From: Tahibacter soli
GTDB lineage: Bacteria; Pseudomonadota; Gammaproteobacteria; Xanthomonadales; Rhodanobacteraceae
NCBI RefSeq assembly: GCF_025717065.2
Contig: NZ_JAOVZO020000020.1
Span: 868,001-932,000 of the forward strand
DNA: 64,000 nucleotides
Reading direction: 5' to 3'
Below the pieces are notes generated by a model that did no database searches, was not told the origin of the DNA, and saw only the letters and a program-made list of their open reading frames with translations. This document shows positions 630 through 11,867 of this stretch, in pieces. The position numbers and the translations under genes are program-made. Positions within the stretch are counted from its first letter, which is position 1. The number at the start of each line of letters is the position of its first letter.

Positions 630-1316
630 TTAAGTCTCGGTCCAGCGGCGCAGCAGGTTGTGGTACACGCCGACCAGCTGCACGAGCGCCGGATGATCGG
701 CGGCGGCCTGGTTCAGGCTCTGGATCGACACGTCGAGGTCGAACAGCAGGCGCCGTTCGCCGTCGTCGCGCACGAGGCTCTGGATCCAGAAGAACGACGC
801 GACGCGCGCGCCGCGCGCGATCGGTTCGACGCGGTGCAGGCTCGACGCCGGATACAGGATCAGGTCGCCCGCCGGCAGTTTCACGGCGTGCGTGCCGAAC
901 GTGTCTTCGATCGTCAGCTCGCCGCCGTCGTATTCGTCGGGGTTCGACAGGAACAGCGTCGCCGACAGGTCGGTGCGCACCGGCGAGCGGTCGTCGCCGG
1001 TACGCGGATAGCGCACGGCGTTGTCGACGTGATAGCCGAACGACTGCCCTTCGCGATAGCAGTTGAACAGCGGCGGAAAGATTCGGCGCGGCAGCGCACC
1101 GGCCATGAACATCGCGTTGCGCTGCAGGCCTTCGAGCACGATCGCGCCGAGCTCGCGCGCGACCGGATGATCGTCCGGCAACTGCAGATTGTTCTTCGCC
1201 TTGGCCGACTGATAGCCGGCCGTCAGGCGGCCGTCGGCCCACCCGGCGGCGTCGAGCTTGCCGCGGCAGTGCGCGACCTGCTCGGCGGTGAGGATGTTCT
1301 GGATGTGCAGCAGCAT
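630..1316 (-). CDS. piuC: PiuC/YbiX-type Fe(II)/2-oxoglutarate hydroxylase
   Basis: This 228-residue protein starts [14 protein letters not shown], the usual N-terminus of the PKHD-type hydroxylase YbiX/PiuC. The iron ligands are visible as H96 and D98 (in YHVDNAVRY) and H161, with 2-oxoglutarate-binding R171. Family members sit beside Fiu/PiuA siderophore receptors and are iron-regulated; here it lies downstream of such a receptor on the same strand, separated by a hairpin repeat pair (1341-1468). The reading frame is open upstream to 1448, but that stretch is repeat sequence, so the ATG at 1316 is chosen. The substrate of this enzyme class remains poorly defined. Confidence 0.93.
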
Positions 1317-1501: not shown

Positions 1502-3934
1502 TCAGAACGAATACGTCGCCGACAGCACGACTTGACGCGCATCACCCGGCGTCGACCAGCCGTTGTTGCGCACGCGCGAGTAGTACTCCTTGTCGAACAG
1601 GTTGTTCGCATTGAGCTGCAGGCGCAGGTCGCGGTTGACGTTGTAGGCCACCATCGCGCGATGCACCGAATAGCCTTCGGCCTTGACCAGCGGGCCGTTG
1701 ATATTCGTCGCGCTGTGCTGCGTGACGTAGTAGTCGCCCTGGTAGGTGAGGCCGTAGCCGAACTGCCACTGGTTCCAGTCGTAGGTCGTCCACAGGCTCA
1801 GCGAGTGTTCGGGCACGTTCAGGAGCGGATCGCCCTTCGTGTAGTCGCGATTGTTGCCCGCTTCGAAGTTCGACGCGCCCTGCAGCACTTCGCTGTCGAG
1901 GTAGGTGTAGTTCGCGTAGACCGCCCAGTGGTCGGTCAGAAGGCCGGTCGCGCCGAGCGTCACGCCGTCGACGCGCGCCTGCCCGTCGAGCTGCTGCTCC
2001 TGCGACGGGTTGGCCGGGTTCAGCGCGTCGGAGACGCGGTAGTTCTCGCGATCGTTGCGGAAGATCGACGCGGTCAGCGACAGGCGGTTGTCGTAGACGT
2101 CCCACTTCGTGCCGATCTCGATGTTGACCGCGGTTTCCGGGTCGACGCCGCAGTTGTTCGCCGCGACGACCGGGCCGCCCGGCAGGCCGGGCGCCGTGCA
2201 CGAGCCGTTGACCGACGCCTTCGACGGCGTCTTGGAGTTGCCGTACGCGACGTAGATGCTCGCGTTTTCGACCGGCTTGTAGACGAGGCCGGCGCGGTAC
2301 GAGAAGAGATCGTTGTCGTTCTTGGCCGGCGGCGCGGCGCCGGTGATCGTGCCGATGGGACCCGCGGCGCCGGCCGCCGTGTTGACCGTGTAGTTCGTCG
2401 TGCTGCCTTCGTTGTGCTCGAAGCGCGTGCCGAGGTTCACCGACCACCGCTCGTTGAACTTGATATTGTCAAAAGCGTACAACGCCGCGTTATCCAGTTC
2501 GCCGTCGGCTTTGCCGGTGCGGGTGCGGTTGCGCGGGCCGGTGTAGTAGTTGTCCGGGTTGAAGATGTCCATGAACGGCAGGTGCTGGCCCGGGCCGCCG
2601 TACGGGTTCGAGCCGTCCGGGTTGCGGAACTCGGTGCTGCCGTCGAACGCGTAGCTTTCGTGCATCAGCGAAAAGCCGGTGACGAGCTGGTGCTGCAGCG
2701 CGCCGGTTTCGAACGACGACGTCAGGTCGGTCTGGTTGATCAGCATGCGGTTCGTCGTGTCGCGCACGTTGCCGCGCGGACCGGTCGGCATGTAGAGGCC
2801 GGCCGGAACGGTGACCGGGCCCGCCGGCGTGCCGACGTTGACCGTGCAGCTGCCGCCGATCGGCGTCAGGACGTTCGGCATGCAGTACGTGCCCTGCGGC
2901 GGATCGACGATCGTGAACTGCGTGACGCGCTGCGCGCGCGTGAAGTTGCGCACCGACATGTCGTCGCTGAAATTGTGCTGCAGGATCGCGGTGAACGCGT
3001 CGACTTCTATTTCCTGCGTGTCGACGTTGCGATAGCCGTAGTAGGTCGACGGATCGACGCCCGGCAGCGGGCGGCCGTTGTAGAACGGCACGCCGTACTG
3101 CGGAATGTTGTCGTCCTTCTGGTGCAGATAGCTCAGCGTGAACGTCGTGTCGGTGCCCACGCCGAACGCGATCGACGGCGCGAAGCCCCAGCGCTTGAAC
3201 TCTTCGACGTCGCGGCCCGGCGCGTCGTTGCGGTGGCCCATGAGGTTCACGCGCACGGCGGTCGTGTCGCCGATCATCTGGTTCGTGTCGAGCGTCATGC
3301 GGCCGTAGCTGTCGGTGCCGACCGCGCCGGTGACGTTCGTGAACTCGCCGGAGCGCGCCGCCTTGGACACGAGGTTGATCGTGCCGCCGACCGAGCCCGC
3401 GCCCGAGAACACCGAGTTCGCGCCGTTCGTCACTTCGATCTGTTCGAGGTTGAACGTGTCCGAGCGCGAGTACTGCGCGCTGTCGCGCACGCCGTCGAGC
3501 TGGATGTCGTTGTTCGCCGAGAAGCCGCGCAGGTTGATCGAGTCGCCGAAACCGCCGCCGCCTTCGCCGGCGCCGAACGTGATGCCCGGCAGCGTCGACA
3601 GCACGTCGCGCAGCGACAACAGGTTCTGCTCGCGCATGATCTTCTGCGGCACGACCGAGATCGTCTGCGGCGTGTCGCGCAGCGGCGCGGTGTACTTCGG
3701 CGACACGGGCTCGGTTTTGTTGGCGAGGCCCTGCACGTCGACCGCGTCGAGTTCCGTCTCTTCCTTCCGGCGCTTGTCGGCCGCGTCGGGCGTCTGCACC
3801 GCGGTGTCGGCCGGCGCCGGGTCGGCGGCGACTTCGGCGTGGGCGGCGCCGGAAACGAGCGCGAGGCCGAGCGCGGACGCCAGCAGGCGCTTCGGCGCCG
3901 CCTGGCTGGAACGGATGTACGGGTTGCTGGACAT
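1502..3934 (-). CDS. TonB-dependent siderophore receptor, Fiu/PiuA type
   Basis: An 810-residue outer-membrane receptor. It has a signal peptide (about residues 1-35, ending AHA), a plug domain with [14 protein letters not shown] and [17 protein letters not shown], and a 22-strand barrel ending in the expected terminal phenylalanine (SATYSF). The plug wording matches catecholate siderophore receptors (Fiu, CirA, PiuA). ATG 3934 is preceded by AAGGA; the frame is open further up to 4300 but without coding character. A Fur-like box lies about 170 bp upstream (4105-4123), and piuC follows on the same strand, as in the E. coli fiu-ybiX pair. Which siderophore it takes up cannot be read from the sequence. 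Confidence 0.93.
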
Positions 3935-4104: not shown

Positions 4105-4123
4105 TCAATGAGAATGATTCGCA
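4105..4123 (-). promoter_or_regulatory. Fur-like box upstream of the siderophore receptor
   Basis: The site reads TCAATGAGAATGATTCGCA on the plus strand, with the TGAGAATGAT core of Fur operators. It shares TGAGAATGA with the box at 9057-9075. It lies in the 416-bp gap between the receptor start (3934) and the end of the reductase gene (4351), where no gene is seen, and is oriented to control the receptor. The match is partial (one half-site is better than the other). Confidence 0.65.
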
Positions 4124-4350: not shown

Positions 4351-5976
4351 CTAGTACACGTCGCGCCGATAGCGGCCTTGCGCGACCAGCTGCTCCACGC
4401 GTTCGGCGCCGAGCGTGTCGACCAGCACCGCGTGCACGCCCGGCGCCATGCCTTCGAGGCTGCCGCAGACGTAGATCGCGGCGCCGTCGTCGACCCAGGC
4501 GCGCAGCGCGTCGCCCGCCTGCGCGAGCTTGTGCTGCACGTACACGCGTTCGGCCTGGTCGCGCGAGAACGCAAGATCCAGACGTTCGAGATCGCCTTGC
4601 GCGTGCCATGCGCGCAACTCGTCGCCGTAGAGAAAATCGACCGCCGCCTCGCGTTCGCCGAACAGCAGCCAGTTGCGCCGGCGGCCGGCCGCGACGCGCG
4701 CCTTGATCAGCGCGCGCAGGCCGGCAAGCCCGGTGCCGTTGCCGACGAGAATCATCGGCCGCGCATCGGGCGGCGCGTGGAAATTAGTATTTTTTCGCAG
4801 ACGCACGTCGACGACGCCGCCGACCGGCACGTGCTCGGTCAGCCATCCGGCGCCGATGCCGAGGCGGCCGTCGGGCCGGCGCCACTGCCGCACGACGAGA
4901 TGCAGCGCGCCGTCGGCCGGCAGCGAGGCGATCGAGTATTCGCGGTGCGCGAGCGGTTCGAGCGCGCTCACCCGCTCGCGCCAGTCGCGCGCCGTCGGCG
5001 CCGTTTCGGGCAGGCGGCTGCGCATCAGCCGCGCGCGCAGCGTTTCGCCTTCGACGAGCGTCGAACCCGCGACGCCGATCGCGGCGAGGAGCGCGTCGAC
5101 GTCGGCCGGCGCGTTGCGCGGGCCGATCTCGGCGACGTCGCCGGCGTCCCATTGCAGATCAGCCGAATCCGGCGGCACCAGCGCGACGTGGAAGCACGGG
5201 CCGCCGCGGCTGCCCGCGTTGAGCAGCCGCCGCTCGGCGAGCCGCCAGGACGCGTAGCGCGGCGCCGCCCAGTCGGCTTCGTCGGTCGCGCCGGACAGCA
5301 CGCCGACCTGATGCTGCCAGTGGCGCAGCGCACCCGCGTCGCCGTTGTCGACCTCGACGAGATCGAACAGCGGCCGTGCGCCCTGGTGCCGCAGCCAGCG
5401 GTCGAGCGCGTGTCCAAAACCGCAGAAGTGCACATAGTCGCGATCGCCGAGCGCGAGCAGGCCGTAGTGCAGGTTCGGCAACGGCACGTCGCGGCTCATG
5501 CTGCGCCGCGCGAACGCGGACGCGAGATCCGGCGGATCGCCCTCGCCGTACGTGCTGACGACGAACAGCGCGCGCTCGACGCCGGCGAGATCTTCGGCAT
5601 TCAGCGCCGCCAGCGATTCGAGCCGCACGGCCGCGCCGGCGGCGCGCAGAGACTGCGCGGTGCGCACCGCGAGCTGTTCGGCGAAGCCGGTCTGGCTCGC
5701 GAACGCGACGAGTATCGGATTCGCCCCGGCCGGCGCGTTCGCGAGCGCCGCCTGCGCTTCGCGCCGCGCGCGGCGGCGCGCGCCGCGCCAGCACAGGCCG
5801 GCGTAGATCGCGACGCACAGCGCCGCGCCGACGAGCCGTCGCGCGCCGGGATCGGTCCACACGATCACCTCGCGCTGCACCAGCGCGAGCCAGGCGAACG
5901 CGGCGGCCAGCGCAACGAGCACCGCGGCATTGCCGAACGTCGCGGCGTCCGGCATGGAGAAACGGGATCTTTTCAT
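4351..5976 (-). CDS. Membrane-anchored flavodoxin/FNR-type reductase (CysJ-like)
   Basis: A 541-residue protein with two N-terminal membrane segments (about 12-30 and 43-60), a flavodoxin domain (VAFASQTGFAEQLA, VSTYGEGDPPD, LGDRDYVHFCGFG) and a ferredoxin-NADP reductase half (REYSIAS for FAD, VGNGTGLAGLR for NADPH, YVCGS). This is the diflavin layout of sulfite-reductase flavoprotein and P450 reductase, but here tied to the membrane. It starts at ATG 5976, overlapping the apbE stop by ATGA. As the last gene of a Fur-boxed operon it would be the cytosolic NADPH-to-membrane electron entry for the PepSY/DUF2271 proteins (inference). The frame is open far upstream, but that is a shadow of other genes. 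Confidence 0.88.
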   Translation of the reverse strand: MKRSRFSMPDAATFGNAAVLVALAAAFAWLALVQREVIVWTDPGARRLVGAALCVAIYAGLCWRGARRRARREAQAALANAPAGANPILVAFASQTGFAEQLAVRTAQSLRAAGAAVRLESLAALNAEDLAGVERALFVVSTYGEGDPPDLASAFARRSMSRDVPLPNLHYGLLALGDRDYVHFCGFGHALDRWLRHQGARPLFDLVEVDNGDAGALRHWQHQVGVLSGATDEADWAAPRYASWRLAERRLLNAGSRGGPCFHVALVPPDSADLQWDAGDVAEIGPRNAPADVDALLAAIGVAGSTLVEGETLRARLMRSRLPETAPTARDWRERVSALEPLAHREYSIASLPADGALHLVVRQWRRPDGRLGIGAGWLTEHVPVGGVVDVRLRKNTNFHAPPDARPMILVGNGTGLAGLRALIKARVAAGRRRNWLLFGEREAAVDFLYGDELRAWHAQGDLERLDLAFSRDQAERVYVQHKLAQAGDALRAWVDDGAAIYVCGSLEGMAPGVHAVLVDTLGAERVEQLVAQGRYRRDVY

Positions 5977-6956
5977 TCTTGCAGAATCGCTGTGAAGGCC
6001 GGCGTGTCGGCGCTTTCGAAACCGTGCGCCGACCGCGTCACGAAACGCGCCGCGATGCCGCGTTCGCGCGCGAACGCGAGGCCGGCGTCCACGCCGAGCA
6101 CGGTCAGCGCCGTCGCGTACGCGTCGGCGACCATCGCCTGCGCATGCACGACCGACACGGAAGCGGGGGCGTCCGCCACGGGCTCGCCCGTGCGCGGGTC
6201 GATCGTGTGCGAGTAGCGCCGCACGCCGCGTTCGTAGTAGCGGTGATAGTCGCCCGACGTCGCGATCGCGCGGTCGTCGAGCGCGATGACGTCGCCGGCC
6301 GCGCCGTCCGGCCGTTCGAGCGCGACGCGCCAGCGATGGCCGTCGGGCCTGCGACCGCGAGCGCGCAGTTCGCCGCCGATTTCCACGAGATAGTCGCTCG
6401 CGCCGAGTTGATCGAGCGCGCGCGCGACTGCGTCGACGGCATAGCCTTTCGCGATCGCGCTGAAATCGAGCGAGAGGCCACCCGGCTGGTCGAGCGTGCG
6501 CGTATCGCGATCGAACGCGACGAGGCGCCACCCGCAGCGCGTGCGCGCCGCCGCGAGCGCGGCGGCGTCCGGCGGCTCGGTGCGCGCGCCGTCGGGGCCG
6601 AAACCCCAGAGGTTCACGAGCGGGCCGACGGTCGGGTCGTACGCGCCGCCGCTGTCGCGCGCGACGTCGAGCGCGCAGGCGAGCACCTGCGCGAAGCCTT
6701 CGGGCACGACGTGCCGGCTGCCGGCCGGCGCGCGGTTGTAGCGCGCGAGGTCGGCGTCGGCCTGCCACGTGCTCATCTGCCCGATCACGCCGGCGAGCGC
6801 GGCGTCGATCGCCGGCCGCGCTTCGTTCGCCTCTTGCGTCGTCGCCATTTTCACCGACCAGGTCGTGCCCATCGTCTCGCCGCCGAACGCGGCGAGGCGC
6901 GCGCGGCGGCGCGCGAGCCAGCGGCGCGCGGAGGAAGGCAAAAGTGCGAGCGGCAT
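5973..6956 (-). CDS. apbE: ApbE FAD:protein FMN transferase
   Basis: A 327-residue ApbE-family enzyme, which cleaves FAD and attaches FMN covalently to a Ser/Thr of a partner protein outside the cytoplasm. Family landmarks: GGETMGTTWSVK, ADLARYN, GGAYDPTVGPLVNLWGFG, LSLDFSAIAKGYAVD, IDPRTGEPV. ATG 6956 is taken; GTG at 6959 is the alternative. No lipobox is visible and the N-terminus is arginine-rich (SSARRWLARRRAR), unusual for a protein expected to act in the periplasm. The likely substrate is the DUF2271 protein two genes upstream, which carries DGVSGAT. Overlaps the reductase gene by 4 nt. Confidence 0.92.
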   Translation of the reverse strand: MPLALLPSSARRWLARRRARLAAFGGETMGTTWSVKMATTQEANEARPAIDAALAGVIGQMSTWQADADLARYNRAPAGSRHVVPEGFAQVLACALDVARDSGGAYDPTVGPLVNLWGFGPDGARTEPPDAAALAAARTRCGWRLVAFDRDTRTLDQPGGLSLDFSAIAKGYAVDAVARALDQLGASDYLVEIGGELRARGRRPDGHRWRVALERPDGAAGDVIALDDRAIATSGDYHRYYERGVRRYSHTIDPRTGEPVADAPASVSVVHAQAMVADAYATALTVLGVDAGLAFARERGIAARFVTRSAHGFESADTPAFTAILQE

Positions 6957-7007
6957 CACGGCGATCGATACGCGGCGCGGCGGCGGCGAACGCCGCCGCG
7001 CATCGCG

Positions 7008-7811
7008 TTACTGCTGCAGCACTTCGAACGTCGCGACGTAGTTCACGCGGCGCTTCTTGGCCTGCTTGACGCTCGTGTTCGCGTCTTCGAGCGACGCTTC
7101 GAGCCAGTACATGCCGGGCGCAGGCCACGTCACCGAAAACTCGCCGCTCTTGTCGGTCTTCACCTTGATTTCGTTCTGCTTGTCGCGCCAGCGGCTGCCG
7201 CCCGGCACGATCTCGACGTCGAGATCGGCGGCCGGCTTGCCGTCGAGCAGCAGCCTGAACTTCGCCGTTTCGCCGGCGAACAGGTCGTTCGGGTGCGTGA
7301 CGGGCGCGAGTTCCAGGCCCGCGCCGGTGGGCTTGAGCGCCGTGTCGTTCGGCGCGCCGGCGGTCACGAAGGTTTCGTTGCGGCCGGCCGACTGGTTCAC
7401 TTCGAGATTCTTCGCGTCGGCCGGAATCTCCTTCGCGAACGCCTCGGCGGTGCCGCGCCAGCGCTTCTTCTCGCCGTTCAGTTCGTAGCTCGCGAACAGG
7501 CCGGCGTTGACGACGGCGATCTTGTACGTGCCGGCCTGCGTCAGGTGCAGGTCGAACACGCTGCGGAACTTGCCGGTGAACGGATTTTCGGCCTGCGCCG
7601 GCTTGCCGTCCGGCGCGGTGATCGCGAGATTGTCGAGCTTGACCGGCACGTGGTTGAAGTAGAACAGGTCGTTCGACACGGCCGCGTCGACGGTGACCCA
7701 CTGGTCCTGCGTCGTCACCGTCGTCGACGGCAGCAACCAGGCTTTGTGCGCAAAAGCGGAAAACGGAACAAATGCCGCGAGCGCGACGGCGAGCTTGGCG
7801 GAAAACTTCAT
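7008..7811 (-). CDS. DUF4198 periplasmic protein
   Basis: A 267-residue exported protein: the start [21 protein letters not shown] is a clear signal peptide, and [10 protein letters not shown] after the cleavage site is the usual beginning of mature DUF4198 proteins, whose N-terminal His is suited to metal binding. The C-terminal half looks like an Ig-like domain ([21 protein letters not shown]). GGAGG sits 6 nt before ATG 7811. It lies between the DUF2271 and apbE genes. DUF4198 proteins recur in metal-uptake and reduction loci; the biochemical role is not established. Confidence 0.85.
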
Positions 7812-7841
7812 GACGCCTCCGGTATCGGTCTGGGTGAACAC

Positions 7842-8372
7842 TTAGGGCGAAACGTCGAGCGTGACGGCGCCGAGTTCGACGTCGCCCTTGGTGTCGAAGT
7901 GCGCCGGCTTGGCCGGCGGCCACTGGAACGGAATGCGCACGATTTCGCGGCCGCCGACTTCGCGCGCGGCTTCGACCACGAGCTTGTAGCTGCCGGCCGG
8001 CAGGCCCGCGAGCGGCGCCTTCGCGTCGTCGAATTCGAGCTTGTGCACGCCGGCCGGGCGCGTCGCGCCGCTGACGCCGTCGATCGGCAGCGTGGCCGAG
8101 CGGCCGGCTCGGCGCCACCACTGGCGCAGGTCGGCGAGCCACTTCGTGCCCTGCTCCATCTTGCCGCCTTCGCCCTTGCCTTCCTTCTGCTGGTACCACA
8201 CCGCGAGATTCGCCGCGACGGTCTGGTCGTCGCGCTCCACCCACACCGCGACATAGGGGCGATGGTATTCGGCGACTTTCAGGTTGGGCACTTCGACACC
8301 GACATTGAGATCGGCGGCGAACACGGGGCCGGCGAGGAGGCCGGTCAGCGCAATCGAAAAACGGGCACGCAT
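7842..8372 (-). CDS. DUF2271 periplasmic protein with flavinylation motif
   Basis: A 176-residue exported protein (signal peptide MRARFSIALTGLLAGPVFA). The domain matches DUF2271 (RPYVAVWVERDD, TKWLADLRQWWR). Residues 98-104 read DGVSGAT, the sequence form that ApbE modifies in NqrC/RnfG-type proteins, making T104 the candidate FMN-threonine. Comparative genomics has linked DUF2271 to ApbE flavinylation, and apbE lies two genes downstream. It would be a periplasmic flavin carrier between the PepSY membrane protein and a ferric substrate (inference). Confidence 0.85.
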   Translation of the reverse strand: MRARFSIALTGLLAGPVFAADLNVGVEVPNLKVAEYHRPYVAVWVERDDQTVAANLAVWYQQKEGKGEGGKMEQGTKWLADLRQWWRRAGRSATLPIDGVSGATRPAGVHKLEFDDAKAPLAGLPAGSYKLVVEAAREVGGREIVRIPFQWPPAKPAHFDTKGDVELGAVTLDVSP

Positions 8373-8382
8373 AGAAACCTCG

Positions 8383-9009
8383 TCAGTGAATGAACAGAAG
8401 TGCGAGCAGCACGGGCACGAGCAGCCCCAGGCCGACCAGCGGCCAGGTCGACGGCCGGCGCTGCGCATGGAACTGCAGCAGCAGCAGGCCGGTGACCGCG
8501 AACACGAAGCACGCCACCGCGAACACGTCGATGAACCACGTCCACACCGGGCCGGTATTGCGCCCCTTGTGCAGGTCGTTCAACCACGACACCCAACCGC
8601 GGTCGGTTTTCTCATATTCCACTTTGCCGTCGGCGAAATCGACGCTCGCCCACGCGTCGCCGCCCGGACGCGGCAGCGAGAGATAGATCTCGCCGTCGTT
8701 CCATTCGGCGGTCTTGCCCGCCGCCGCGACGCCGAGGTCCGTCGCGAGCCAGCGCGCGAGTTCGTCCGGCACCGGCGACTTGCCGGTTTTGCCTTCGGCT
8801 TCGGCGGCAAGACGCGCCTTCAGCGCGTCGGGCAACTGCGCCTGGCGGTTCGTCACGACCGGCTCGGCGCCGATCTGCGACGCGTGGTTCAACGTGATGC
8901 CGGTGACCGCGAACAGCGCCAGACCCACCAGACACACGGCCGAACTGATCCAGTGCCACTGCACGAGCGTCTTCAGCCACCAGGCTCGGCGTTGCGGGTC
9001 GAGATGCAT
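8383..9009 (-). CDS. PepSY-associated transmembrane protein
   Basis: A 208-residue inner-membrane protein, first gene of the Fur-boxed operon. It has an N-terminal membrane segment (about 20-42, with QWHWISSAVCL and TGITLNH), a periplasmic PepSY-like region, and two C-terminal membrane segments (from WTWFIDVFAVACFVFAVTG to the end). The conserved histidines suit heme or metal binding. Related PepSY_TM proteins act in iron and ferric-siderophore reduction (for example FpvG in Pseudomonas). ATG 9009 is chosen because the frame upstream is not coding and the Fur-like box is centred about 57 bp before it. Confidence 0.85.
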   Translation of the reverse strand: MHLDPQRRAWWLKTLVQWHWISSAVCLVGLALFAVTGITLNHASQIGAEPVVTNRQAQLPDALKARLAAEAEGKTGKSPVPDELARWLATDLGVAAAGKTAEWNDGEIYLSLPRPGGDAWASVDFADGKVEYEKTDRGWVSWLNDLHKGRNTGPVWTWFIDVFAVACFVFAVTGLLLLQFHAQRRPSTWPLVGLGLLVPVLLALLFIH

Positions 9010-9056
9010 ATCGGGCTGGCGCGAACACGGGCGTACGGGCCGGCGATTACAGCAGA

Positions 9057-9075
9057 AATGAGAATGAATCTCAAT
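9057..9075 (-). promoter_or_regulatory. Fur-like box upstream of the PepSY-ApbE operon
   Basis: The site AATGAGAATGAATCTCAAT contains the palindrome TGAGA-N5-TCTCA (9059-9073), typical of Fur operators. It lies 48 nt upstream of the leftward PepSY gene and about 210 nt upstream of the rightward protease gene, so the operon is the likely target. The rest of the 278-bp divergent gap shows no gene. Confidence 0.75.
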
Positions 9076-9287
9076 TAAAACGAGCGCCGGCGTGCGAGTG
9101 GCCACGTTCGCCGCCAACTTTCGGTTTGTGCAACGTACTGACGCGCATCGCAGGTTCCGAGACGGGTCCGGATGATCGTAGCCGCGCCCGGAAGCGGCCC
9201 GTCTGTGCATCGCGAGCACCGCAGCAGTGGGTCACAGGCATCGACCGGGGGCACGGTCGAGCAAAGCACACAAACCAAGGAGCACCC

Positions 9288-11867
9288 ATGAAAAAATCCC
9301 TATTTCTCTGCCTCTCGGCCTGTGCGTGCGTCGCGCACGCGCAGACACCGCAGATGCGCGAATACTGCGAAGCAACGCCGGAGGAGCGCAAGGTCGCCGA
9401 TGCCGTCGGCTTCATGGCGCAGGTCGGCGAGATGACCTTCAACTCGTTGACGAACACCTACTCGATCCACGCGCGCCCGTTCAACTACAACAACGACACC
9501 CCGTCAATGCCGATCTGCACCGACGAGCCGCTGTACGGCCAGATCTACGCTTACTGGGGCCGCACGGCCTTCCTCGTCGGCCCCGACCGCATGGTCACCG
9601 CGCCGCATGGCCCGAAATCGACGTTCGATCCGAAGGACTTCCGCGTCGTGTTCGGCCTGCGCCGCGAACGCCTGCCGAACGGGTCGTGCGGCGCCGTGAA
9701 CTTCGACGCGATCCCGGCGGCGAACGTCTACTCGCCGCCGGTCGACTCTCACTTGTATACGAGTTTCGTCAGCGGCGAGATGAACACGCCGGACTACCTC
9801 TACTTCAAGCTCGACCGCCCCGTGCCGGGCGTCAAGCCGCTGACGCTGCGCCGTTCCGGCGCGCCGGACCTCGGCGATCCGCTGATCCTCGTCGGCCATC
9901 CCGCTCGCCTGCCGCTGAAGATCGGCATCGGCGGCTACGTCAACGCGATCACGCCCAACGGCCTGGACGTCGGCCACGCGCCGGCGTGGAACGGCAACTC
10001 CGGTTCGCCGATCTACAACGTGCGCAAAAAGGTGGTCGAGAGCGTCGCGGCCGGCCCGATCACCGGCGTGGGCCTGACGCTCGACACGACGGCGAACTGT
10101 TGGCGTACCGGCCCCGATATCGGCGCCGAGATCCTGTCGCAGCTCAACAACGGCCCTATCTCGCGCTTCGTCGACCACGTGCCGCCCGCCGCGCACGAAA
10201 TCCTCGTATCGCCGCGCGCGACGGTCAACCACGTCAAGCTGCCCAACGGCACGCTGACGAACGCGACCACGACATTCACCGTTTCGCCGTCGCCGAACGC
10301 CGGTTCGACGCCGCAGTCGTTCCGCGTCCAGTCGTTCGGGCACGTGGAGGGACCGCAGACGATCGTCATACCGTCGGGCGCGTTCACGGTCGCGGCCAGC
10401 GACGCGCCCAAGACATTCACGGTCGACGCCTCCGCCGGCACCGCCAACTGCGGTTCGTATCAGAGCGACCTGCGCATCGTGCGCGCCGACACCGGCGAAA
10501 CCGTCGACGTGATCCCGCATCGCTTCGAACTCGGCATGACCGACTTCGCCGCGACGCCGAGCGACGCGTGGACACTGTCGAAGCTGACCGCGCCGCACCC
10601 CACGCGCACGCTCGCGCTGTCGAATCCGAATCCGGTCGCGGTCACGCTCGACGTAGCGTCGTCCAAGCCGTGGGTCACGGTCAACGGCGGCGCGTCGACG
10701 ACGGTTTCGCTCGCGGCGGTCGGTACTACCGGTTCGACCGCGAACGTCACGCTCGCGATCGCGAACGCCGACACGCACATCGCGCTCGGCGCCACGGCGA
10801 CCGCGCAGGTGACGATCACGCCGACGAACGCGGGCTGCAGCCTGCGCCAGGCGCAGACGATGCCCGTCAGCTTCACCAACGGCATCCAGCCGTTCTACGG
10901 TCTGTCGACGACATTTGCTGCATTCCCGCAGCCGACGTCCGGTCAGACGTTCGGCGCGGTCGTCGAACTGCCGGTCGACCTGTCCGGCGAAGCGCCGTTC
11001 AACGTCGCCGACGTCGATCTCAACCTCGGCTTCTATCGCGAGGGCCCCATGGGCGTGCCCGCCGACCAGATCGATACGCTGCTGCGCGTCGTGCTCGTCG
11101 CGCCGGACGGTACATCGGCGATGCTGTGGGATCGCGCAGACGCGCCGGCCGGCTACGTCGACTCGAGCACGGTGCTCGTCGACAACACGCCGACGCCGAT
11201 CTCGCGTCTGAAGCTCGACGACGCGACGACGCCACCGATCGCGCCTCAGCGCCTTGCCGTGTTCAACGGCCGCGCCGGCAAGGGCGTCTGGAAGGTGCGT
11301 CTGTACGGCATGGCCGGCACGCAGTACGCGATTCCCGCGTCGGCACAGCTGGTCGTTCGGCGCGCCGCGGCGACGAGCCCGATGGTCTTCAGCGCCGTGC
11401 CGGCGTTCGTCAACACGCTCGCAGCGCCGGCCGCGGGCCAGACGTTCGGCGCACCGACCGAACTGTCGATCGACGCGGGCACGATGCCCGCGTTCACCGT
11501 CGCCGACGTGAATCTCGACGTCGGCTTCTACAACGAAAGCGGCCTGTTCTACGGCGCCGACCTCGCCGACACGATCGTCAAGCTCGAACTCGTCGCGCCG
11601 GACAACACGACCGCCGTGCTGTGGGATCGCAACAATTCCACTTCAGCCTACGTCGCGAACGAGACGATCTACTACGACAACGGCGTCGTGCCGATGTCGG
11701 TGCTCAAGCTCGACGATGCGACGACCGCGCCGCTTGGCGGAGGCCTGTTGTCGGCGTTCAACGGCCACGCCGGTGCCGGCACGTGGAAGGTACGCATCTA
11801 CGGCGCCGCGGGAGCCGGCAACGTGGTGCCGCAGGCCGCGAGGCTGTCGATCGTGCGTACGCCGTGA
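9288..11867 (+). CDS. Secreted trypsin-like serine protease with two P domains
   Basis: An 859-residue secreted protein: signal peptide (cleavage near residue 18, VAHA/QT); a chymotrypsin-fold protease with candidate catalytic residues H107 (VTAPHG), D169 (PDYLYFKLD) and S238 (GNSGSP); a central beta-rich region; and two tandem proprotein-convertase P domains near the C-terminus, each with LxVAPDxTxAxLWDR and FNGxAGxGxWKVR(I/L)YG. AAGGAG precedes ATG 9288. P domains on bacterial exoenzymes usually aid folding or substrate binding. It stands alone; the upstream Fur box points the other way. A hairpin at 11876-11898 follows. Confidence 0.88.
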   Translation: MKKSLFLCLSACACVAHAQTPQMREYCEATPEERKVADAVGFMAQVGEMTFNSLTNTYSIHARPFNYNNDTPSMPICTDEPLYGQIYAYWGRTAFLVGPDRMVTAPHGPKSTFDPKDFRVVFGLRRERLPNGSCGAVNFDAIPAANVYSPPVDSHLYTSFVSGEMNTPDYLYFKLDRPVPGVKPLTLRRSGAPDLGDPLILVGHPARLPLKIGIGGYVNAITPNGLDVGHAPAWNGNSGSPIYNVRKKVVESVAAGPITGVGLTLDTTANCWRTGPDIGAEILSQLNNGPISRFVDHVPPAAHEILVSPRATVNHVKLPNGTLTNATTTFTVSPSPNAGSTPQSFRVQSFGHVEGPQTIVIPSGAFTVAASDAPKTFTVDASAGTANCGSYQSDLRIVRADTGETVDVIPHRFELGMTDFAATPSDAWTLSKLTAPHPTRTLALSNPNPVAVTLDVASSKPWVTVNGGASTTVSLAAVGTTGSTANVTLAIANADTHIALGATATAQVTITPTNAGCSLRQAQTMPVSFTNGIQPFYGLSTTFAAFPQPTSGQTFGAVVELPVDLSGEAPFNVADVDLNLGFYREGPMGVPADQIDTLLRVVLVAPDGTSAMLWDRADAPAGYVDSSTVLVDNTPTPISRLKLDDATTPPIAPQRLAVFNGRAGKGVWKVRLYGMAGTQYAIPASAQLVVRRAAATSPMVFSAVPAFVNTLAAPAAGQTFGAPTELSIDAGTMPAFTVADVNLDVGFYNESGLFYGADLADTIVKLELVAPDNTTAVLWDRNNSTSAYVANETIYYDNGVVPMSVLKLDDATTAPLGGGLLSAFNGHAGAGTWKVRIYGAAGAGNVVPQAARLSIVRTP

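Follow-up and report, generated by a model that had tools for sequence, protein, structure and literature searches.

We analyzed a stretch of 64,000 nucleotides (nt) from Tahibacter soli (assembly GCF_025717065.2, contig NZ_JAOVZO020000020.1, positions 868,001-932,000; hereafter the window, whose own positions are used throughout), which is part of a 6.65-Mb genome in 23 contigs. Five genes on its minus strand, ordered from 9009 down to 4351, encode a PepSY_TM_like_2 protein, a DUF2271 protein, a DUF4198 protein, the flavin mononucleotide (FMN) transferase ApbE, and a diflavin reductase (Table 1). They are tightly spaced, with gaps of 10, 30, and 48 nt followed by a 4-nt overlap, and the first four matched their Pfam families PF16357 (1.4e-84), PF10029 (7.2e-49), PF10670 (5.5e-61), and PF02424 (9.7e-85), respectively. 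The fifth matched Flavodoxin_1 and NAD_binding_1, with a FAD_binding_1 match that was below the curated cut-off in the Pfam search, and had one clear N-terminal hydrophobic stretch (residues 15-33), in agreement with the membrane anchor proposed in an earlier note on this DNA. That note had also placed all five families in one operon behind a TGAGA-N5-TCTCA box and next to a receptor, and both statements held: the PepSY start codon at 9009 is preceded, at a distance of some 50 bases, by the Fur-like box TGAGAATGAATCTCA, and downstream, on the same strand, there is a TonB-dependent receptor gene with a box of its own and then a PiuC/YbiX-type hydroxylase gene. The operon is probably of an iron-starvation type in which electrons from inside the cell reach periplasmic iron via a covalent-flavin protein.

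Table 1. The five-gene operon of the window, its candidate regulatory sites, and the adjacent iron-type genes (aa, amino acids).
Feature	Position	Strand	Basis or remark
Fur-like box TGAGAATGAATCTCA	9059..9073		overlaps TTGAGA-17-TGTAAT promoter-like pair (by eye)
PepSY_TM_like_2 membrane protein (208 aa) with three hydrophobic helices	8383..9009	-	Pfam, conservation
DUF2271 protein, Sec-type signal, predicted flavinylated carrier	7842..8372	-	Pfam, sequence
DGVSGAT codons (residues 98-104), T104 = predicted FMN acceptor	8061..8081	-	
DUF4198 protein of the periplasm, with H22 as predicted mature N-terminus	7008..7811	-	Pfam, conservation
ApbE FMN transferase without recognizable export signal	5973..6959 (start 6959 or 6956)	-	Pfam, N-terminus
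Membrane-anchored flavodoxin-FNR (diflavin) reductase	4351..5976	-	Pfam
Second Fur-like box TGAGAATGATTCGCA	4109..4123		inside promoter-like site of receptor gene
TonB-dependent receptor, PiuA-like	1502..3931	-	Pfam, solved-structure search
PiuC/YbiX-type Fe2+/2-oxoglutarate hydroxylase	630..1310	-	Pfam

The candidate regulatory sites point to Fur. TGAGA-N5-TCTCA occurred once in the window, where 0.06 copies were expected and 6 of 100 shuffles held at least one. Genome-wide, TGAGAATNANTCTCA with up to one mismatch was found at two places, the operon box and the second box before the receptor gene, and TGMGAATSATTCKCA at the same tolerance was found at four, with the reversed-pattern controls returning 0 in both cases. 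Each of the four was just upstream of an iron-type gene: two belonged to the operon and the PiuA-like receptor, and the other two to a large PepSY_TM protein and a further TonB receptor (Pfam, 3.5e-57 and 7.1e-32, respectively), a distribution consistent with the Fur-like promoter site that had been proposed. Relatives were scanned for sites that agreed with a Fur consensus at 13 or more of 19 positions. By this measure, box-like sites were present upstream of the PepSY gene in 15 of 57 regions (7 of 1140 shuffles) and upstream of the receptor in 4 of 15 (5 of 300 shuffles), and in the control, upstream of DUF2271, in 2 of 59 (5 of 1180 shuffles). In the literature, Fur binding and iron repression are reported for a Caulobacter operon made up of these five families in this order (PMC3751524), and a predicted Fur regulon of Stenotrophomonas includes pepSY, receptor, and piuC genes whose locus tags are close to one another (PMC6240677).

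The DUF2271 protein carries DGVSGAT at residues 98-104, as its translation confirmed, which makes T104 the predicted acceptor, and its N-terminus was signal-like by hydropathy (score 2.04 on the scale given below). The motif [ST]GA[ST] was present in 53 of 59 DUF2271 rows, and the remaining six retained the acceptor threonine within variants such as GPT, QPT, SAAT, and ARAT; in locus L157 the acceptor was a serine. Judged by these alignments, the acceptor site is conserved and the published motif is too narrow for the relatives of the Tahibacter operon. Examples of [ST]GPT were seen in DUF2271 of Xanthomonas, Stenotrophomonas, and Pseudoxanthomonas loci (e.g., L103, L104, and L211). In two other loci, L099 and L100, a single open frame of 506-523 aa encoded divergent DUF2271 and ApbE sequences together, with DUF4198 nearby, and there the acceptor region read ARAT or ARET.

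Five histidines of the PepSY protein (H19, H42, H147, H181, and H208) were invariant in 57 of 57 near relatives, and in a wider set of 147 sequences H19 was kept in 142, H42 in 143, H147 in all 147, H181 in 141, and H208 in 143. In our reading of the positive-inside rule, H19, H42, H147, and H181 flank the first two helices with two on each membrane side, so that the four membrane-flanking histidines of a FoxB-type bis-heme reductase are present. The Pseudomonas ferrisiderophore reductase FoxB likewise has histidine pairs on each membrane side for two hemes, but it has two PepSY domains, whereas the window protein is short and sits beside a separate flavoprotein gene (PMC11334425, PMC13038864, PMC12424826). 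Three loci without ApbE and the reductase (L156-L158) had lost H42, H181, and H208 altogether. A fused protein at L265 (843 aa) joined PepSY_TM, flavodoxin, and NAD-binding domains in one chain, its reductase half being 47% identical to that of the window, and this supports a step in which electrons enter the heme protein from the reductase; L289 had the same fused architecture. The PepSY protein also ends in a histidine (H208, codon 8386-8388), as do 141 of 147 relatives, at what is expected to be the periplasmic end of the third helix.

In the DUF4198 protein, the mature N-terminus, with cleavage predicted from the signal, would be H22, a histidine in 59 of 59 rows, and H54, mature histidine 33, was present in 57 of 59 with gaps in the other two. 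Both histidines were present in 80 of 80 named loci, and in the examples inspected from outside complete operons histidine 1 was retained and histidine 33 was missing by eye. These positions suggest a role in binding iron or another metal. The Ideonella DUF4198 protein, which also has histidine at its mature N-terminus, binds Ni2+ via His1 and His18 (PMC12537917), whereas the operon of the window is of the iron type and position 33 of its mature DUF4198 protein holds the second conserved histidine. By counting, mature residue 18 of the window protein is V; the Ideonella sequence was not among the matches in a search of solved structures. The main text of PMC12537917 had zero occurrences of PepSY, flavin, and iron. 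Separately, PDB entries 9mhi-9mho, named phosphoribosylglycinamide formyltransferase, matched the DUF4198 profile (4e-42), and 9mhk has alanine where 9mhi has histidine at three aligned places, two of which form an HxH near the N-terminus, changes that suggest the series may be a metal-site study.

In a search of solved structures, the closest relative of the receptor was Pseudomonas PiuA (5fok, 5.6e-121), followed by PiuD and Fiu; the score of 423.6 did not reach the Fiu equivalog cut-off of 686. The window thus has a PiuA/Fiu-type receptor beside a PKHD hydroxylase, and we followed this linkage in two sets that share genomes: 60 loci around DUF2271 (56 of 59 places from one search and four from another) and the best 80 of 253 relatives. 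All five operon genes were detectable in 49 of the former and 69 of the latter. In the DUF2271 set, 57 loci had a PepSY gene, and 13 of these, the window among them, also had PiuC. Of the best 80, 55 had it, on the same strand in 54 (upstream in 51 and downstream in three) and on the other strand, downstream, in one. Both sets are biased to Lysobacterales; we estimate that chance alone would put a single gene within 10 kb in far fewer than 1% of genomes. PMC12004943 lists a PepSY gene among the next most frequent neighbors of cciT and cciO, at a frequency below 25% of genomes, and the linkage of PiuA, PiuC, and the reductase provides a concrete setting for PiuC, whose role is unsettled according to that source. 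Resistance to cefiderocol, a siderophore drug, has been tied to homologs of the PiuA-like receptor (PMC12004947).

Across 3040 genomes, Meheust et al. 2021 described 3220 PepSY-like flavinylation clusters, of which 2833 contained DUF2271 and 1500 contained DUF4198. They reported ApbE-dependent flavinylation of an Amantichitinum DUF2271 that was lost upon a Thr to Ala change and proposed iron reduction; the type is widespread in Gram-negative bacteria (PMC8238504). As in that definition, which admits PF03929 or PF16357, the window has PF16357 with ApbE and DUF2271, an [ST]GA[ST] motif, and a signal-bearing target, and it resembles those systems in its PepSY protein, DUF2271 with the sequon, DUF4198, ApbE, NAD-binding reductase, and Fur and TonB links. 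It differs in that many relatives of its operon carry the [ST]GPT sequon, and a signal-less ApbE is not discussed in the available portion of that text. In Caulobacter crescentus, CC3059-3063 (CCNA_03155-03159) matches the window operon in its five families and their order and is under Fur control (PMC3751524, PMC12004947). Insertions in CC3059-63 lower fitness in ethylenediaminetetraacetic acid (EDTA), as do those in cciT/cciO (PMC12004947), a PiuA/PiuC-like pair that is at a separate locus in Caulobacter, whereas the receptor and hydroxylase of the window adjoin the operon. Given the published clusters and the Caulobacter operon, the operon of the window belongs to a known type. The path put forward in the earlier note, from NADPH through the membrane to a periplasmic FMN-protein and on to iron, fits the evidence in both its route and its iron role but had already been published, and the remark that electron order and acceptor were not described for this set must be withdrawn, since the same set is treated in PMC8238504, PMC3751524, and PMC12004947, the available parts of which demonstrate no iron or siderophore reduction by it. 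What had been observed is confirmed, and most of what was read into it is correct, though not new; it is the signal-less ApbE that merits a test.

Taken as a whole, the module is likely a Fur-repressed periplasmic ferric reductase. Under iron starvation, Fur repression would be lifted and NADPH would reduce the two cytosolic cofactors of the anchored diflavin reductase, flavin adenine dinucleotide (FAD) and FMN. Electrons would then cross the membrane via two bis-histidine hemes of the PepSY protein, held by H19/H181 on the cytosolic side and H42/H147 on the periplasmic side, and pass to the FMN on T104 of DUF2271, which would reduce ferric iron or a ferric catecholate imported by the PiuA-like receptor. 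DUF4198 would probably bind metal via its N-terminal histidine, and ApbE would install the FMN on DUF2271, perhaps in the cytosol before Sec export. Within this scheme, we infer the heme ligation, the electron order in Tahibacter, the final acceptor, the metal site, and the place of flavinylation.

Export signals were scored as the best mean hydropathy of a charge-free segment of 10-14 residues near the N-terminus, allowing ATG, GTG, or TTG starts up to 65 residues upstream. Scores of at least 1.9 were called signal-like, those below 1.5 none, and those between unclear, on a scale that measures hydropathy and is not a trained predictor. As controls, 181 of 181 DUF4198 and 150 of 167 DUF2271 proteins were signal-like (seven of the latter below 1.5), as were 0 of 68 PiuC proteins (13 between). 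The window ApbE is related to solved FMN transferases (5mgy, 4.3e-74), and VMPLALLPSSARRWLARRRARLAAF precedes its conserved core. No signal was apparent from any in-frame start, and the score of 1.27, against the cut-offs of 1.5 and 1.9, sets this protein apart from the typical exported ApbE of PepSY-like flavinylation systems. The feature was not mentioned in the earlier note and, together with its prevalence among the ApbEs linked to this type of operon, seems new.

We called an ApbE operon-linked if a DUF4198 or DUF2271 profile matched in the same fetched locus (of such loci before L291, three, L099, L100, and L183, were without a PepSY match), and left ApbEs L146 and L147, whose N-termini were unreadable, out of the signal counts. 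Among 159 readable operon-linked ApbEs, 42 were signal-like, 109 were not, and eight fell between; in the non-redundant set (n = 130), 35 were signal-like, 87 were without a signal, and eight were unclear. Other ApbEs were signal-like in 39 of 43 cases, and two of the four exceptions (L101 and L102) came from loci fetched for DUF2271 in which the profiles gave no DUF2271 match. Where the ApbE was signal-less and the DUF2271 N-terminus readable, DUF2271 was signal-like in 76 of 82 cases and had a twin arginine near its start in 15, making Sec rather than Tat likely in most. On a tree of this non-redundant set built by a quick method, the signal state changed nine times, at least five of these on supported branches, and seven times without long-branched rows; the tree is unrooted, and so gain and loss look the same on it, and the number of changes makes a single annotation error unlikely. 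In a column comparison, the residues around the active site (GGE, SGD, H, DPR, and AD) were more than 85% conserved in both signal classes, although regular-expression counts of motifs (TSGDY and others) had differed between them. The signal-less ApbEs, with this core conserved, do not look decayed. We considered and dropped a tie between the Pro sequon and ApbE signal loss: Pro was seen in 54 of 89 signal-less versus 2 of 35 signal-bearing representatives, but there were too few independent pairs; a few sequons in these counts were unread or misread, and the signal-less group there still took in L146 and L147.

An ApbE without a signal and a DUF2271 with one suggest that FMN may be added before export. 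We give a little less than even odds to a route in which the signal-less ApbE would modify the DUF2271 precursor in the cytosol and the FMN-bearing protein would then pass through Sec; such a route would use cytosolic FAD and would not need a periplasmic FAD supply. In the family of genome G012, an ApbE was found in 53 of 79 genomes, and the 30 best-scoring were examined. The sole ApbE was signal-less and beside DUF4198 in 15 of these, and was beside DUF4198 with a signal in six; seven had more than one ApbE, with the examined copy beside DUF4198 (five without and two with a signal), and in two the sole ApbE was elsewhere (one with and one without a signal). The 15 genomes whose sole ApbE was signal-less and beside DUF4198 each held one DUF2271 above the cut-off with a signal-like N-terminus and a Thr acceptor (G502 having one additional weak match, and G634 being a fragmented assembly, 87% complete), and none had a match to FMN_bind, in a search that did not extend to DUF3570 and NqrB/RnfD targets.

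The flavinylation proof of Meheust et al. 2021 was obtained with both proteins expressed without signals in E. coli (PMC8238504), which means that the reaction can run without export. The review PMC12052999 describes cytosolic ApbEs with intracellular targets, along with an early study in which periplasmic location was essential. The Klebsiella cytosolic ApbE covered there resembles that of the window in having no signal peptide, but its target is a soluble fumarate reductase, whereas the expected target in the window has a Sec-type signal. A literature search, which left subscription papers mostly uncovered, returned no title or abstract opening on flavinylation before export among the matches listed; the phrase "cytosolic ApbE" appeared among them only in PMC12052999 and had zero occurrences in the main text of PMC8238504. 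If the pre-export route is true, a covalent cofactor would cross the Sec channel. That would call for a revision of the view that exported targets require an ApbE outside the cytosol, and it would account for the flavinylation of periplasmic proteins in some species without periplasmic FAD. The nine changes of signal state would moreover make the place of flavinylation an evolvable trait.

Several observations weigh against this scheme, in whole or in the placing of the modification before export. The operon box of the window agreed with the Fur consensus at 12 of 19 positions, one short of the cut-off of 13, and H181 was absent in L155 and L165, both of which retained the reductase. In the closest named loci (the best 80 of 253 relatives), 25 sequons were Ala-type, 53 Pro-type, and one unread (n = 79), and with Pro in place of Ala the sequon no longer fits the motif as published. 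A second ApbE in the window genome, L350 (G000:C19:121769), is anchored in the membrane and could serve DUF2271 in trans; where the operon lacks ApbE, genomes retain a Thr or Ser acceptor and encode an exported ApbE at another place, so that modification on the export side may work too. Finally, the DUF4198 protein whose binding was measured prefers Ni2+ (PMC12537917). That preference, through an N-terminal histidine, would suit a module serving nickel or copper, with DUF4198 as the metal carrier and the PepSY protein as its reductase, and another PepSY_TM protein, CrpH, supports heme-copper oxidases (PMC13038864). We regard this as very improbable, given the Fur-like boxes, the PiuA/Fiu-type receptor and PiuC beside the operon, and the Fur control and EDTA fitness reported for this gene set in Caulobacter (PMC3751524, PMC12004947), in neighborhoods that were not searched for nickel and copper genes.

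A reading that keeps the electron path has DUF2271 flavinylated in the periplasm, either by an anchored second ApbE in trans or by the operon ApbE exported along a signal-free route, and we consider it a credible possibility, somewhat short of an even chance. L350 is such an anchored enzyme, and a signal was present in 35 of the 130 operon-linked ApbEs of the readable, non-redundant set, but the FMN_bind protein L361 (G000:C20:629685) could be the anchored enzyme's own target. L350 and L361 form a second possible flavinylation pair, which makes both places of modification possible in the window genome. Seven genomes without an operon ApbE (G323, G162, G592, G476, G588, G568, and G533) had an exported one elsewhere, and the relative G323 kept DGVSGAT; since some ApbE was present in 25 of 25 genomes checked, this discriminates little. 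Periplasmic flavinylation also has to accommodate the 15 of 30 genomes in which the sole ApbE found was signal-less and beside DUF4198, and the core residues kept in that class. It is unlikely that the signal-less ApbE instead modifies a cytosolic protein, with DUF2271 not its target. Klebsiella offers the precedent of the soluble fumarate reductase (PMC12052999), and the linker of the window's own diflavin reductase contains SGAT, but [ST]GA[ST] was found in that linker region in 13 of 54 reductases and in none of the same-genus loci L068, L085, L088, L094, and L098, and the reductase motif was rejected as an ApbE target because it is not conserved. The 15 genomes just mentioned also speak against this reading, each having one full copy of DUF2271 and no FMN_bind match in a search that left out DUF3570 and NqrB/RnfD targets.

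Among the operons without an ApbE in the fetched stretch were nine, mostly from Steroidobacter and kin (L184-L188 and L192-L195), in which DGVTGAT or DGITGAT was intact. A plasmid search gave no match. Upstream of the operon in the window, a divergent open reading frame (9126-11867, plus strand) had trypsin-like and weak proprotein-convertase P-domain matches and likely encodes a secreted protease.

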